64,000 nucleotides of DNA from Bacteroidetes bacterium RIFCSPLOWO2_12_FULL_37_12 (lineage in GTDB: Bacteria; Bacteroidota; Bacteroidia; 2-12-FULL-37-12). This document shows, piece after piece, positions 1 to 57,966 of this stretch. The stretch's first letter is position 1. Each line of letters begins with the position of its first letter. The notes below the pieces were generated by a model, which saw only the letters and a program-made list of their open reading frames with translations, made no database searches and had not been told where the DNA came from. The DNA lies in the NCBI GenBank assembly GCA_001769655.1, contig MEPC01000002.1:1-64000 (forward strand), in the 5' to 3' direction. The translations under genes were made by a program, and so were the position numbers.

Positions 1-605
1 GTATCTAGGCACAAAGCATAAGTATGGCCAATCTCTGCATCTAAATATTTAACGAATCCATCTCCCCAATATTCTGATGTTTCCGTTGCAGTGAAATTTA
101 AACCTGTAATTCCATTTCCTCCTGAATAATATTCTCTAAATACACATCTTATGGCATTTCCTTTATTTGCACATCCATTTGTGATATCATATAATGCAAA
201 ATTATACCAATCGTAATATCCACTTGGGTGTATTGTAAAAGTAAAAGTACCTGCCGTAGAAAAAGTGAATGAATACCAAATAGAGCGGAGCTCTTCATCG
301 CGAAAACAAGAAGTAGAAGTAAGATTATCATTTTCAATCCCCCCGCCGTCAATTAAAGCCGGTAGATTTGTAGTATTTGTTTCACAAGATACAGGTATAG
401 ATGTAGAGCAATCCCCGCCTTCTACCTCTTCTTTTTCCTTAGCTTGCTGAGCAAATATTTTTCCATTGATTCCTATCACTAATAAGGAGATAATTAATAT
501 AAATTTGGTTAGATAGCAAAGATGGATAGGTATTGTATTGTATTGTATTGTATTGTATTGTATTGTATTGTATTGTGGCACGGGTACTAAATGTTGAGTT
601 TTCAT
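1..605 (-). CDS. N-terminal part of a secreted, possibly phase-variable protein (runs off the left edge)
   Basis: An open frame starts at ATG 605 and has no stop down to base 1, so only about 201 N-terminal residues are seen. It begins with ten residues, then three tandem QYNTI pentapeptides encoded by the TATTG microsatellite, then a signal-peptide-like segment (about residues 26-52: a Lys, a long Ile/Leu/Val core, then a FAQQ cleavage region). After an acidic stretch the mature part is rich in Thr/Ser/Gly/Tyr and Cys, typical of Bacteroidota surface or extracellular proteins. No other in-frame ATG lies between the repeat and the signal peptide, so the repeat is probably translated. With nine repeat units the frame is open. 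The function and any C-terminal sorting domain lie outside the window. Confidence 0.75.
   Translation of the reverse strand, partial: MKTQHLVPVPQYNTIQYNTIQYNTIPIHLCYLTKFILIISLLVIGINGKIFAQQAKEKEEVEGGDCSTSIPVSCETNTTNLPALIDGGGIENDNLTSTSCFRDEELRSIWYSFTFSTAGTFTFTIHPSGYYDWYNFALYDITNGCANKGNAIRCVFREYYSGGNGITGLNFTATETSEYWGDGFVKYLDAEIGHTYALCLD
531..575. repeat. (TATTG)9 pentanucleotide microsatellite inside a coding frame
   Basis: Nine perfect TATTG units (CAATA on the minus strand) lie 30 bases inside the secreted-protein gene. Fifteen codons read QYNTI three times. Five is not a multiple of three, so gain or loss of one unit shifts the frame before the signal peptide; only unit counts differing by multiples of three keep it open. 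This is the classic layout of a slipped-strand contingency locus. Confidence 0.9.
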
Positions 606-906
606 AATGGTGAGGGTTTTGAGTTAAATTTTACAATGATAAAACTAATTTAAATAAAAATAATATTAAGCGTTTAAAAAATTGAAATCGAAAAAATGAA
701 AATAAAAAAATAAAAAACGTTTCCTTCCAAGAACAACACAAAAATAAAATGTAAATGTACTACATAAGTATGTTAAAACCAAATAAAAAAGAAAAAATAT
801 TTCATGATTTTTATCAATTTTTAATACTGCTTTAATCTACGAAACTACCAGAATAAAACATAACCATTCCTCTTATTCCGTCAATCCACAATCCTACGTG
901 GAAAAC
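606..906. other. AT-rich divergent spacer without a gene
   Basis: The 375 bases between the secreted-protein start (605) and the STAND gene (981) hold no convincing gene. They are very AT-rich with several A runs. The right end carries the promoter described separately. I see no hairpin, tRNA or other repeat here apart from simple A/T tracts. Confidence 0.6.
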
Positions 907-980: not shown

Positions 981-3900
981 ATGGCAAAAAAACCAAAAGA
1001 AACCCTAAAAAAAAGTTCTCAGCCAAAACAAGATGAGAAAATTAGTACTCCTCTAAACCCGTTTAAATTCCTTAATTATTACACCGAAAAGGACTCAGCC
1101 ATTTATTTTGGAAGGGAAAAAGAAATAGCTCAGCTTCTCACCTTAGTAGAAAAATCAACTATTCTTTTGGTGTACGGCTCTTCCGGTTGCGGAAAGTCGA
1201 GCATGATCCAGTGCGGGTTGGTTTCTGAATTGGGAAAAAAAGGAATACACCCCTTGCTCGTAAGAAGAGGAAATGATATTTCTCAATCCACTGTTTTTTC
1301 CATTTATTCAGAACTTAATAATTCCGGGACGGATGATGTGTCTGTCAATTTTTTTCTTTTGGAATATAATCGGAAAACGAATGAGAAAGAAAAAGATGAA
1401 CAGGATGATTTAAAATTAATTGTAAAAAAATCAACTAAGGCAAGCGTTTCATTGCAAAAAGCGATAGAGAAATTTCATAGCCAAAAAAATTCTCCGGTAT
1501 ATCTGATTTATGACCAGTTCGAAGAATTATTTATTTCGGGAACCCCTGAGGAAAAGAACACCTTTGTAGAAAATCTTAAAATTTTAAGTCAATCAAAAAT
1601 TCCTGTTCATTTTATCTTTATCATCCGCGAAGAATATTGGTCTGAATTATACGATTTTGAAAAACAAATTCCCGGGTTTCTGGATAACCGTTTTCGTCTT
1701 GAAAAAGTGTCACAAACCCTTGCGCAACGCATAGTCCATGAAATGCTCAAAGCCGGCGGCATGACTATGGAAAATGGGTTTGCTGTAAGAGTGTCTGACG
1801 TAGTAGCAAGCGGAAAAAATACCATTGAACTTACCTATCTTCAGGTATATCTGGACCGGATTTATCAGAATAAGAAAATTAGTGGTTCGGTTATGAATCA
1901 TTTTAATATCACAGATATTGATGTTATTGGAGACATAAAAGATGTGCTCGGAGAATTTCTGGAAAATCAGCTTGAGAAAATGCCGGACAGACAATCTGCC
2001 GAAACCATTCTTAAAACATTTATAACCAAAGAGGGTACCCGGCGGTTTATGCGTAAAAAAGATGTTCTCTATTTCAGCCAGGCGCTTGGAAACGAAATAC
2101 CCTTAAAAGATATTGACTATTATATTCAGCATTTTGTATCCATTTCCATTCTAAAAGAGAAAAATGAATACGGAGAATATGAATTTCTTCACGATAGTTT
2201 AGCTGAAAAAGTATTTCAAAAACTTTCCGGACAGGAAAAAGAATTGTATAACATGGACCAGGCATTGGTAAATGGGCTTGCCTATTATCGTAAAAAAGGT
2301 ATTCTCTTGCGCGAAGAAGAATTAAACTGGATGAAACCTTATGAAGAAAAATTAACCACTCATAGCGATTTTAAAGACCTGCTCATAAAAAGTAAAAAAG
2401 GAATTAAAATACGCAAAAGAAATCGAAGGATTCTGGTGACAGCAGTAGTCGTGCTCATTTTTGGATTTGCATCATCCTCTGTTTTTTATTTTACCAATGC
2501 AGAAAAATTTAAAGCCAACGTTGCAGAGTTGACTCAAAAAGTAAAAATGCAGGTTGACCAAATTTTAAAGTTCAAAGATGAACTAAAACAAAAAATTGCG
2601 CTTATTGGAGAAAAAGAAAAAGTAATTGTAGAAAAACAAAGCCAGATTGAAAAATTAAAAACAGCGCTTGATGCAAAAGAACAGTTGGTAATTTTGAATA
2701 AGAAGATGGCAGAAGAACAGCGATGGCTCGCGGTTAAGAACGAAAAATTAGCCAAAGAAAATTTTAATAAATACATGGAAGCAGTGGAATCAGCGGATTC
2801 TGCACTAAAAATTGCAAGAGAAAGAGAATCGGAAATCATGAAGTTAAAATCTGCATCCAATTTACCGAGGTATCAAAACATGCCCAACGTGAATGCCATT
2901 ACTAAATCCAGTGAATTAGCCATTCGTTCAGTGGTAAAAATTCAGGATGACCCGGTGTTGAGTTACCGGCTGGCTGAATCGGCTTATGGACTGTTTCAGA
3001 GTGATATTTCAATTCAGGCATTGGTTTCTGCTTATAATTCTCCCGCATTGAGACGGTGTGCTGTTGATATCCGCAAAAGCAAGATGTTGATAATTTCTGA
3101 GGATGCGTTATCATCTATTAGGATAGAAGCAAGTTTTTCACCCGATGGAAATAATATTATTGTTCCCACCGAAGCATACACTGCATCACTCATTAATCTG
3201 GAAGGAGAAAAGATGATGGATTTGAAAGGAAATGAGGCAGTAGTGTTGAATGGGAAGTTTTCTAAAGATGGTAATTTGATACTCACTATTTATAATGATA
3301 AAATTGGCAGATTATGGAATTATAAAGGAGAAATGCTTGCCATATTAAAAGGACACAAAAATTATCTCACCTATTCCGATTTTTCCAGCTCAAATCTGAT
3401 TGTAACAGCATCGTGGGATAAAACAGCCCGCATCTGGGATACTGCGGGTGTCACTAAAACCATTCTTAAAGGGCATGATGAGATGGTGCGAAAGGCAATT
3501 TTTTCAGGCGATGGCACCGTTGTACTCACAGGTTCTTTTGATAACACCGTCCGGTTGTGGGATTTACATGGAAATGAACGATTGCAGGTTAAATTGCCTG
3601 ACGAAAAATTTGTGGATTTGGATTTTATTCCTTTTCAGGATAAATTTATTGTTGTATCTGACAAATTTTCAAGAATTTTTGATTTTTTAGGAAATGTATT
3701 AAATGAATATCCGAATTCGGTGTTGAAATTTTCATCAGACGGAAAGACGTTTATAAATATTTTCAGAGACAAAATTTTATATACCGATGCACGGGGTGTC
3801 ACCCGTAATATTGCCCGTGGGAATACAGAATGGATAATGGGCGCAGACATTTCTCCCGATGGAAATTACATTGCTACCCGTGCTTACAATGTTGCAAAAG

Positions 3901-4133
3901 TGTGGGATGTTCGCAAAGAAAGAGAATTATTGGTGTTAAACGGACATTCCAAAAAAATTGAAGAAATAAAATTTTCGCCCGACAGCAAACATGTGGTAAC
4001 TACTTCTCTCGATGGCACCGCAAGAATTTGGCTTATTGACCCTGAGATGATTATTAAGAAAATTAACGAGGAAGGGACGGCATCTAAAATCAGGCAGTTG
4101 ACTCCGGCAGAAAAGGAGCTTTACGGGATATAA
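981..4133 (+). CDS. STAND-type P-loop NTPase with transmembrane helix, coiled coil and WD40 repeats
   Basis: 1050 residues. The N-terminal half is an nSTAND/AAA-like NTPase: an N-terminal NPF...YFGRE entry motif, Walker A GSSGCGKS at residues 66-73 and Walker B YLIYDQFEEL at 174-183. A single hydrophobic helix lies at about 484-504, flanked by basic residues, followed by a long Lys/Glu-rich coiled coil (about 505-650). The C-terminal third has WD40 units with RIWD, RLWD and KVWD signatures (about 720-1035). Such proteins are usually annotated as WD40/NACHT-like ATPases and act as signalling or conflict-sensing scaffolds; the ligand is unknown. The gene is monocistronic, with its own promoter and no effector gene beside it. 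Start ATG 981 fits the promoter and the basic N-terminus. Confidence 0.85.
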   Translation: MAKKPKETLKKSSQPKQDEKISTPLNPFKFLNYYTEKDSAIYFGREKEIAQLLTLVEKSTILLVYGSSGCGKSSMIQCGLVSELGKKGIHPLLVRRGNDISQSTVFSIYSELNNSGTDDVSVNFFLLEYNRKTNEKEKDEQDDLKLIVKKSTKASVSLQKAIEKFHSQKNSPVYLIYDQFEELFISGTPEEKNTFVENLKILSQSKIPVHFIFIIREEYWSELYDFEKQIPGFLDNRFRLEKVSQTLAQRIVHEMLKAGGMTMENGFAVRVSDVVASGKNTIELTYLQVYLDRIYQNKKISGSVMNHFNITDIDVIGDIKDVLGEFLENQLEKMPDRQSAETILKTFITKEGTRRFMRKKDVLYFSQALGNEIPLKDIDYYIQHFVSISILKEKNEYGEYEFLHDSLAEKVFQKLSGQEKELYNMDQALVNGLAYYRKKGILLREEELNWMKPYEEKLTTHSDFKDLLIKSKKGIKIRKRNRRILVTAVVVLIFGFASSSVFYFTNAEKFKANVAELTQKVKMQVDQILKFKDELKQKIALIGEKEKVIVEKQSQIEKLKTALDAKEQLVILNKKMAEEQRWLAVKNEKLAKENFNKYMEAVESADSALKIARERESEIMKLKSASNLPRYQNMPNVNAITKSSELAIRSVVKIQDDPVLSYRLAESAYGLFQSDISIQALVSAYNSPALRRCAVDIRKSKMLIISEDALSSIRIEASFSPDGNNIIVPTEAYTASLINLEGEKMMDLKGNEAVVLNGKFSKDGNLILTIYNDKIGRLWNYKGEMLAILKGHKNYLTYSDFSSSNLIVTASWDKTARIWDTAGVTKTILKGHDEMVRKAIFSGDGTVVLTGSFDNTVRLWDLHGNERLQVKLPDEKFVDLDFIPFQDKFIVVSDKFSRIFDFLGNVLNEYPNSVLKFSSDGKTFINIFRDKILYTDARGVTRNIARGNTEWIMGADISPDGNYIATRAYNVAKVWDVRKERELLVLNGHSKKIEEIKFSPDSKHVVTTSLDGTARIWLIDPEMIIKKINEEGTASKIRQLTPAEKELYGI

Positions 4134-4137
4134 TTAA

Positions 4138-4174
4138 TCATCCAACATCCAACATCCAACATCCAACATCTAAT
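4138..4174. repeat. Heptanucleotide array (CATCCAA) at a stop codon
   Basis: Four tandem copies of a 7-nt word (CATCCAA on the plus strand, TGTTGGA on the minus) lie between two convergent genes. On the minus strand the TAG stop codon of the outer membrane protein at 4170-4172 lies inside the first unit, so the array starts at the coding boundary. Confidence 0.8.
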
Positions 4175-16596: not shown

Positions 16597-16655
16597 AGAA
16601 TAGAAGATAGAAAATAGAAAATAGAAGATAGAAAATAGAAAATATCCAATAGCAA
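16597..16655. repeat. Heptanucleotide array (AATAGAA) ending at a start codon
   Basis: Words AATAGAA/GATAGAA repeat with a perfect 7-nt period about eight times, end in AATAGCA, and the next unit contains the ATG of the transglycosylase gene at 16656. The array therefore forms its translation initiation region. Confidence 0.85.
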
Positions 16656-34430: not shown

Positions 34431-34575
34431 TAGCTATATCTTTGCAAATAAGTAAATTGCAAAGTGTCAATGGTTTACTATTGAGTCGTAAACCGTAATT
34501 TTCCACCCCCTACCCCCGCCAGCAGGGGACAGGATTCCCTTACTTATCAGGTAAATCAAGAGATTTCACAATTCA

Positions 34576-34613
34576 ATCGTAAATCGTAAATCGTAATTCG
34601 TAAATCGTAAATA
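34576..34613. repeat. Heptanucleotide array (TCGTAAA) at the der start codon
   Basis: Five 7-nt units TCGTAAA/TCGTAAT end 2-3 bp before ATG 34616 and form the der translation start region. The 145 bp before it hold no gene, only an inverted stretch around GGTTTAC/GTAAACC and a CCCCC/GGGGG run. Confidence 0.85.
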
Positions 34614-51264: not shown

Positions 51265-51407
51265 TAATAGAACAATAGAACAATAGAACAATAGAACATT
51301 TGAACAATTGAATTAAGAACTTAAACATAGTTCAACATTCACTATTCAAATGTTCTATTGTTCTATTGTTCTATTGTTCAACTGTTCTACTGTTCTATGG
51401 TTCAAAA
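51265..51407. repeat. Large hairpin of ATAGAACA words
   Basis: The left arm is tandem 8-nt ATAGAACA units, the right arm is CTATTGTT/CTACTGTT units, separated by about 30 bp. The arms pair over about 50 bp. The rest of 51246-51675 is very AT-rich, with a smaller inverted repeat and no gene. Confidence 0.8.
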
Positions 51408-55983: not shown

Positions 55984-57966
55984 ATGAAAAAAGAACAAAC
56001 CAATAAAATGCTACCACACTTGCAAGACCATTTGGCAGCAATTGTTCAATCTTCTGATGATGCCATTATCAGTAAATCAATGGATGGGACGATTGTCTAT
56101 TGGAATTTGGGAGCCGAAAAAATATTCGGATATAAATCTGATGAAGTAGTTGGAAAATCAATTAATCTCCTTGCTCTGCATAAAACGGATGAGCACAAAG
56201 AGATAGTGGAAAAATATAAACGAGGAGAGAAATTAGAGCACTACGAAACCAAAAGAATTAAGAAAGATGGTTCAACAATAGAAGTATCTTTAACTGTATC
56301 TCCGATTTTCGACCATCAACACAAAACCGTTGGCTTTTCCACCATCGCCAGAGACATTACAGGGAAGTCACTCTATTCCAAATATGCAAGAAGTTTGATT
56401 GAAGCCAGCTTAGACCCGCTTGTTACCATCAGCGCTGATGGGAAAATTACAGATGTAAATGAAGCGTCCGTTAAAGTTACAGGTGTATCACGAGAAAAAC
56501 TGATAGGCACGGACTTTTCAAATTATTTTACAGAACCGGAAAAAGCCAGGGAAGGATACAGGCAGGTATTTGAAAAAGGATTTGTTGCAGATTATCCGCT
56601 AACTATCAAAAATAAAAATGGAAAATTAACCGATGTGTTATACAATGCTTCCGTTTATAAGGATGATAAGGGAAATGTTCTTGGAGTGTTTGCTGCCGCC
56701 CGTGACATCACCAAACAAAAGGAAGTAGAAAATCAAATTCAGAAAATACAAACCTATACAAGGATGCTCATTGAAACATCTCTTGACCCTCAAATCACAA
56801 AAGGAACAGATGGACTTATAAAAGATGTAAACGAAGCGACAATTTTGGTAACGGGAGTGCCGCGCGAAAAAATTATAGGAACTCATTTCCCAAACTATTT
56901 CACCGAGCCGCAAAATGCAGAAAGGGCATATCAGGAGGCATTTGCAAAAGGAGTGGTAAGAAATATTCCATTAGCCATCAAACATACTTCAGGAAAAATT
57001 ACAGATGTGCTTTACAATGCAACTGTATATAAAGATGAGTCAGGAAATGTTCAGGGTGTGTTTGCCTCAGCCAGAGACATTACCGATAGAATTAAAGGCG
57101 AAGAAGAAATAAAGAAAAGTCAGGCATACACACGAAGTTTAATTGAAGCCAGTTTAGACCCGCTTGTTACCATCAGCGCTGATGGAAAAATATTGGATGT
57201 GAATGAAGCATCCGTTAAAGTTACGGGTGTAACCCGTGAAAAACTAATTAGCACTGACTTTTCAAATTATTTCACTGAACCTCATAAAGCAAGGGAAGGT
57301 TATCAGCAGGTTTTTGAAAAAGGATTTGTTGCAGATTACCCGCTCACCATCAAACATAAAAACGGAAATTTAACGGATGTGTTATATAATGCTTCCGTTT
57401 ATAAAGATGAAAAGGGAAATGTGCTGGGAGTATTTGCCGCCGCCCGCGATGTAACGGAGCAAAAACAAACATCACAATATGCAAGAAGTTTGATTGAAGC
57501 ATCACTTGACCCTTTAGTTACCATCAGTGCCGATGGAAAAATCTTGGATGTGAACGAGGCATCGGTGAAAGTTACGGGTATTTCCCGTGAAAAACTGATT
57601 GGTACTGATTTTTCAAATTATTTTACTGAACCCAATAAAGCGCGTGAAGGTTATCAGCAGGTTTTTGAAAAAGGATTTGTTTCCGATTATCCGCTCACCA
57701 TCAAGCATACAAGCAATAAATTAACTGATGTATTGTACAATGCTTCTGTTTATAAAGATGACAAAGGAAATGTGCTGGGTGTTTTTGCCGCTGCCCGTGA
57801 TATAACTGCCCAAAAACAATTAGCAGAAAGAGAAGTAGCAGAAAGAGAAAAAGAGTTGCAAAGAATTGAAGAGTTAGAAAGATTCCGAAAATTAACTGTT
57901 GGCAGAGAATTAAAAATGGTTGAGTTAAAAAAAGAAATTGAAGAATTAAATAAGAAAGCCAATTAA
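55984..57966 (+). CDS. Cytosolic sensor protein of five tandem PAS domains
   Basis: 660 residues, no membrane segment and no kinase domain. PAS 1 (about 12-133) is divergent. PAS 2 (136-256), PAS 4 (382-497) and PAS 5 (498-610) are almost the same sequence (SLIEASLDPLVTISADGKI, FSNYFTEP.KAREGY.QVFEKGF, DVLYNASVYKD), and PAS 3 is a related variant. DNA is also very similar, so the duplication is recent. The C-terminus is a helical signalling coil (ERFRKLTVGRELKMVELKKEIEELNKK). It presumably passes its signal to the kinase encoded 28 bp downstream. Confidence 0.88.
   Translation: MKKEQTNKMLPHLQDHLAAIVQSSDDAIISKSMDGTIVYWNLGAEKIFGYKSDEVVGKSINLLALHKTDEHKEIVEKYKRGEKLEHYETKRIKKDGSTIEVSLTVSPIFDHQHKTVGFSTIARDITGKSLYSKYARSLIEASLDPLVTISADGKITDVNEASVKVTGVSREKLIGTDFSNYFTEPEKAREGYRQVFEKGFVADYPLTIKNKNGKLTDVLYNASVYKDDKGNVLGVFAAARDITKQKEVENQIQKIQTYTRMLIETSLDPQITKGTDGLIKDVNEATILVTGVPREKIIGTHFPNYFTEPQNAERAYQEAFAKGVVRNIPLAIKHTSGKITDVLYNATVYKDESGNVQGVFASARDITDRIKGEEEIKKSQAYTRSLIEASLDPLVTISADGKILDVNEASVKVTGVTREKLISTDFSNYFTEPHKAREGYQQVFEKGFVADYPLTIKHKNGNLTDVLYNASVYKDEKGNVLGVFAAARDVTEQKQTSQYARSLIEASLDPLVTISADGKILDVNEASVKVTGISREKLIGTDFSNYFTEPNKAREGYQQVFEKGFVSDYPLTIKHTSNKLTDVLYNASVYKDDKGNVLGVFAAARDITAQKQLAEREVAEREKELQRIEELERFRKLTVGRELKMVELKKEIEELNKKAN

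Follow-up and report, generated by a model that had tools for sequence, protein, structure and literature searches.

Frameshift contingency loci have been described chiefly in host-adapted pathogens. The opa genes of Neisseria contain a repeat that encodes a part of their signal peptide core. The surface protein Opa is switched by CTCTT repeats, located in the stretch that encodes its leader, at a rate of about 1e-3 per generation (PMC3960869). Pentanucleotide arrays have been described also in the case of the pil1 and pil3 loci of Streptococcus gallolyticus, which have (GCAGA)n leader peptides (PMC3894217). Poly-G/C contingency loci of Campylobacter, Neisseria and Helicobacter have been catalogued with the use of PhasomeIt (PMC6321876, PMC5953494), and the published repeat thresholds are at least 9 units for G/C and at least 5 units for pentamers (PMC5953494). 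Bacteroidota are better known for switching by DNA inversion. Recent reviews stress such inversions (PMC11868660), and Ornithobacterium hominis is reported to have a putative phase-variation mechanism acting on its FSD adhesins (PMC13183296). Our search of the open-licence literature yielded neither a PhasomeIt-like inventory for Bacteroidota nor a description of slippage control of type IX substrates.

The gene described here, referred to as gene A, is encoded on the minus strand at the very beginning of the analysed window, i.e., the whole 64,000-nucleotide stretch of the genome of the uncultured Bacteroidetes bacterium RIFCSPLOWO2_12_FULL_37_12. Its sequence features suggest, with a probability that we put at about 0.8, that gene A is an ORF-internal simple-sequence-repeat contingency locus with a predicted slippage switch in its leader. 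As in the case of Neisseria opa, a pentanucleotide lies in the 5' leader-coding region of a probable surface protein, a change of unit number shifts the reading frame, and several genes of one set could switch independently. Unlike in opa, the repeated unit is CAATA and it precedes the hydrophobic core within an extended n-region, the cargo resembles type IX substrates, paralogues carry poly-C tracts, and the host belongs to Bacteroidota. Gene A is not a member of the opa family, as its Pfam domains are PKD and Ig-like, and no Opa beta-barrel is present among them. With pil1 and pil3 it has in common a pentamer array in a short leader frame and a frame-dependent outcome, but in pil1 a separate peptide acts on a terminator, whereas here the array is a part of the exported-protein ORF and no terminator hairpin is predicted. 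The likeness to Ornithobacterium hominis is that of another member of Bacteroidota with many adhesin genes and putative phase variation (PMC13183296). The features of the locus (window coordinates) are as follows:

1-27, no strand assigned: overlap used for the contig join, identical to the last 27 bases of contig C25 (51889-51915)
3-449, minus strand: start of the mature protein of gene A, cut by the contig end, with the rest on C25; weak match to PF23759
450-530, minus strand: remainder of the leader, comprising PIHLCYLTK, the hydrophobic core FILIISLLVIGI and the predicted cleavage site KIFA/Q
531-575, minus strand: predicted slippage tract, (CAATA)9 on the coding strand and (TATTG)9 on the plus strand, read as (QYNTI)3
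576-605, minus strand: ATG (603-605) and 30-nt prefix MKTQHLVPVP before the tract; gene B shows conservation of this ATG and of its 5' context
606-644, minus strand: 5' UTR block (TTTTATCATT..TAA..CAAAACCCT..ATG) common to genes A and B
750-782, minus strand: candidate promoter of Bacteroidota type (TTG-N19-TACATTTA) with an imperfect -7 box, upstream of the start and the tract

Tandem Repeats Finder reported at positions 530-576 a repeat of period 5 with 9.4 copies and a 100% match, the top-scoring microsatellite of the window. The number of (CAATA)9-type arrays expected in the genome by chance under a first-order Markov model is 2e-19. An assembly artefact is unlikely, because the 45 bases of the array are shorter than the read length and two loci agree. 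The stop-free minus-strand ORF that starts at ATG 605 reads MKTQHLVPVP(QYNTI)3PIHLCYLTK, followed by the core given above and by KIFA/QQ; the hydrophobic core and the FA/Q cleavage site of the signal peptide were judged by eye. The n-region of 34 residues is unusually long. In addition to the candidate promoter listed above, a second, weaker one is present at -131; the consensus used for all promoter candidates is that of the Bacteroidota primary sigma factor.

The CAATA unit is stop-free in all three forward frames and gives one pentapeptide in every frame, so that the frame outcome is set only downstream of the array. In our frame simulation 6, 9 and 12 units gave products of 1073, 1078 and 1083 aa, respectively, while 8 units gave 53 aa and 10 units gave 33 aa; the two OFF frames of gene A terminate within 28-58 codons. 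The original prediction had described nine perfect TATTG units beginning 30 bases after ATG 605 and translated as three QYNTI pentapeptides with the signal peptide in the same frame, that is, an ON configuration. Both the 100% repeat match and the ORF, which is open to 1078 aa, agree with this description. Its claim that a single unit gained or lost breaks the frame is reproduced by the simulation, and its claim that no other in-frame ATG could rescue translation holds for GTG and TTG as well, since none of the three codons occurs in frame between the array and the hydrophobic core.

The window opens at the end of contig C2, and gene A is therefore cut at its base 1; the array was considered as a cause of this contig break and rejected. 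The frame of gene A runs on into contig C25 for 885 codons, and the joined protein of 1078 aa contains PKD and Ig-like domains (Pfam). A C-terminal type IX sorting domain, for which the original prediction had proposed to look by extending the gene to the left, is indeed reached via C25, at the cut-off of its family: it is borderline, with 26.9 bits, or 27.1 bits with neighbours, against a family cut-off of 27, and its scores are lower by hmmscan (22.2 bits) and for TIGR04183 (19.6; cut-off 23). A type IX secretion system is present in the genome, which encodes SprA (2543 bits) and about 150 type IX sorting domains; only two of the genes with these domains, A and B, contain a CAATA array. Gene A is adjoined in divergent orientation by a gene (981-4133) encoding an nSTAND1 NTPase with WD40 repeats (1050 aa).

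Elsewhere in the 3.94 Mb genome, TATTG arrays of at least three units occur at one site only (C24:257167-257191, five units). This array also lies, in frame, between the ATG and the signal peptide of an exported-type protein, of 1439 aa, and its gene, with the leader at C24:257080-257226, is referred to as gene B. The type IX sorting domain of gene B is clear (42.3 bits; TIGR04183 25.1, cut-off 23). In the frame simulation 2, 5 and 8 units are ON, and 4 and 6 units are OFF; thus A and B are both assembled in an ON state. Genes A and B are homologous at the DNA level over a block that opens at about -40, in the 5' UTR, takes in the array and closes with the cleavage-site codons; past this point there is no homology. 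Within this block the 84 leader bases 3' of the array are 71% identical, while none of the 70 array bases in A and B together departs from the repeat, for which the chance of no substitution at the divergence of the leader is about 3e-6. Perfect arrays in a diverged leader are as expected if slippage keeps renewing the arrays. The prefix ahead of the array is 30 bases long in A and 35 in B, which allows the different copy numbers of the two genes to be both in frame. The mature proteins are largely unrelated and share only common Ig-like modules; homology of their N-terminal domains is unsupported (hhalign probability 0.4%).

A search of the genome with gene B revealed six further genes that encode its N-terminal mature domain. 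The identity of this domain to that of the first member of the family is 76-92% in the paralogues and 42% in gene B. The bodies of the paralogues look, from their VGIGTxxPxxKLDVNG-type repeats and C-terminal coiled coil, like trimeric fibres, and they match no Pfam family above the cut-off. A leader is visible in five of the six, the contig of the remaining one (C37) beginning just after the tract, and all five carry a run of C7-C12 where genes A and B carry CAATA. Their layout consists of a long n-region with the C run and then a signal peptide that ends in SQ, and in each a candidate promoter of Bacteroidota type lies 71-89 bases before the ATG, so that candidate promoters precede the ATG in all five of these leaders as well as in A and B. 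The ON and OFF states could be read for C1, C3 and C23, as in C5 (C12) and C28 (C10) there are N gaps beside the tract, and the lengths are given as assembled, since assembly can misstate poly-C runs. Paralogue C1 (C9) is in frame and ON. Paralogue C3 (C11) is OFF, being shifted by a single base; its frame of 825 codons is intact, and no start codon occurs 3' of the tract. Paralogue C23 (C7) is OFF when read from its upstream ATG and has an intact frame of 796 codons, and a short signal could be initiated at an internal ATG that is in frame. The occurrence of both ON and OFF states with the coding region intact is therefore a property of the poly-C paralogues only, the CAATA genes being both ON.

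With regard to the published thresholds, the pentamer counts of nine in A and five in B are not below five units, and the poly-C leaders of the paralogues are in the PhasomeIt-type range except for that of C23 with seven. As a class, C-runs of at least 9 are not enriched in the genome (13 seen vs. 13.4 expected in the Markov model). The enrichment is confined to long C runs and to their position: C-runs of at least 12 were seen five times vs. 0.19 expected (about 26-fold, p ~2e-6), and four of the 13 C-runs of at least 9 fall within the 0.025% of the genome that the paralogue leaders represent (p ~3e-12).

A scan of 84,980 species for ATGAAA followed by 12-42 bases and three CAATA units retrieved 11 loci. 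The same architecture was found in only one of them, in Cytophagales MAG-153 (L032, 2658-4406), where (CAATA)8 lies in frame between the ATG and a lipoprotein-like signal of a 583-aa ORF that matches no Pfam family; most of the others are chance or intergenic matches. At least four CAATA units occur in just 4 of 395 Bacteroidia genomes, and the unit is therefore not a general leader motif; the relatives listed for comparison belong to the same class but to other orders. In one Bacteroidia genome (G100, locus L033), (CAATA)7 directly precedes the ATG of a GH123-type exported protein. Distant homologues of the N-terminal domain of gene B are encoded by other Bacteroidia; in five of the nine inspected the signal peptide is of the ordinary short kind and no repeat is present, and two of these distant homologues have a 9-base run of C or G that is placed outside a comparable leader. 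A (CAATA)11 array was also noted in a Gastranaerophilales MAG (L024, 7334-7388, reverse strand), in a gene with GWD1 phosphohistidine-like and PPDK_N parts; it is OFF as assembled, and 10 or 13 units would join both halves.

The mechanism that we propose for gene A would involve the start of both transcription and translation upstream of the repeat, the latter at ATG 605. Slipped-strand mispairing would lead to the gain or loss of CAATA units in individual cells. As a unit length of 5 is not divisible by 3, the ON state would recur only at every third copy number: those in frame (6, 9 and 12) would join the start to the signal peptide and the exported protein (1078 aa at nine units), and in two of three frames the exported protein would probably be lost. 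The (QYNTI)n peptide would be located in an extended, tolerant n-region and cleaved off along with the signal peptide; the mature protein would hence be identical in ON variants of differing length. At least eight genes with such leaders (A, B and six paralogues of B) may each switch on their own and thereby make the cell surface more diverse. We presume that their products are located at the surface and that switching is of benefit. The phase-variation reading of the original prediction gains support from the second in-frame CAATA leader and from the poly-C paralogues, some of which are out of frame. A point against it is that A and B are both ON, as would be seen also with arrays that are stable and under selection.

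Slippage of the array without any adaptive role, with OFF cells being lost and the tolerant n-region letting arrays persist, would be consistent with the ON state of both CAATA genes in the assembly and with the many other short tandem arrays of the genome, which are mostly intergenic. Such a neutral origin does not, however, predict recurrence at the same leader position, and both pentamer arrays of the genome belong to copies of a single leader, while the paralogues keep another slippery tract at the same position in a mixture of ON and OFF states. For this reason we consider it rather unlikely. The unusual n-region of 34 residues might in turn suggest that translation begins 3' of the repeat, which would then be merely a part of the 5' UTR. 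This is hardly credible given that gene A offers no ATG, GTG or TTG in the appropriate frame ahead of its hydrophobic core, that gene B retains the upstream ATG together with its 5' context, and that the candidate promoters are positioned further upstream.

The repeat might also tune expression, with copy number setting its level, either because the G-free CAATA keeps the 5' coding region unstructured or because the leader peptide acts as an attenuator. Compared with shuffled controls, the leader RNA has less structure (z = +1.68), the (CAATA)7 array of G100 lies directly before a start codon, and pil1 of Streptococcus gallolyticus has GCAGA repeats in a leader peptide (PMC3894217). Nevertheless, the predicted fold of the gene A leader contains no terminator-like hairpin with a T run, the ORF with the repeat is that of the surface protein itself and not of a separate peptide, poly-C tracts, as present in the paralogues, would not have such a structural role, and the effect of slippage on the frame is unavoidable anyway. 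Tuning is thus improbable as an explanation, and a frame switch in the leader is the reading that we prefer.

The slippage mechanism itself is of an already known kind. What is new, in an environmental member of Bacteroidota, is a leader block common to two otherwise different exported proteins, and a gene family in which either of two tract types can occupy the same position. The original prediction had stated that pentamer loci of this type are not common knowledge in environmental Bacteroidota; our literature search agrees with that, but repeats in leaders of surface proteins as such are classical in Neisseria opa (PMC3960869), and putative phase variation of adhesins is reported for one species of Bacteroidota, Ornithobacterium hominis (PMC13183296). 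Tentatively, the 5' UTR, start, tract and signal peptide may represent a transplantable cassette that was recombined before unrelated surface proteins, with an exchangeable tract type, giving at least eight independent switches and a combinatorial repertoire; we regard this as possible, though doubtful. A set of slippery leaders that includes fibre-like proteins and type IX substrates would untie slippage bet-hedging from immune evasion, and phage or grazing pressure would be obvious candidate drivers. The model of a leader switch is directly testable, as ordinary sequencing reads reveal the copy number. OFF members of the set may be misannotated, because they have no in-frame start.

In an 854-kb sample of the genome, the perfect 5-mer arrays of at least four copies are two in number, those of genes A and B. 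The same sample contains 39 perfect 7- and 8-mer arrays, 37 of which lie outside ORFs of at least 100 aa; the coding position of the 5-mers against this background speaks for the leader switch. Many perfect or near-perfect tandem arrays of the latter unit sizes, nearly all of which are intergenic, are present in the window, at 4139-4170, 16599-16644, 34575-34612 and 51266-51403, and in other parts of the genome. A 351-base tandem duplication (1.9 copies, 85% alike) occupies a coding region at 57166-57819.

Several other homopolymeric runs were noted in the genome. At C24:169640-169655 (L201), G15 lies just after a lipoprotein-type signal (MKMPLHKISPALIVSVMLTIPSCQNPEDVIEAR); the gene is OFF as assembled (40 aa), and a G run of 13 or 16 would give 678 aa. 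A G9 run at C20:282014 was considered as an OFF locus and not counted, as a TTG start gives read-through into a glycosyltransferase-like protein. Runs of G13 at C39:20353 (L203) and of G9 at C38:87831 (L202) and C33:81592 (L204) are located within exported-protein genes, all of them ON, and in each a single base gained or lost truncates the product. At C23:76526 (L183), C12 lies directly 5' of the ATG of an exported TPR protein (MRKPLFISLPFFSF...), where it may possibly have an effect on expression.
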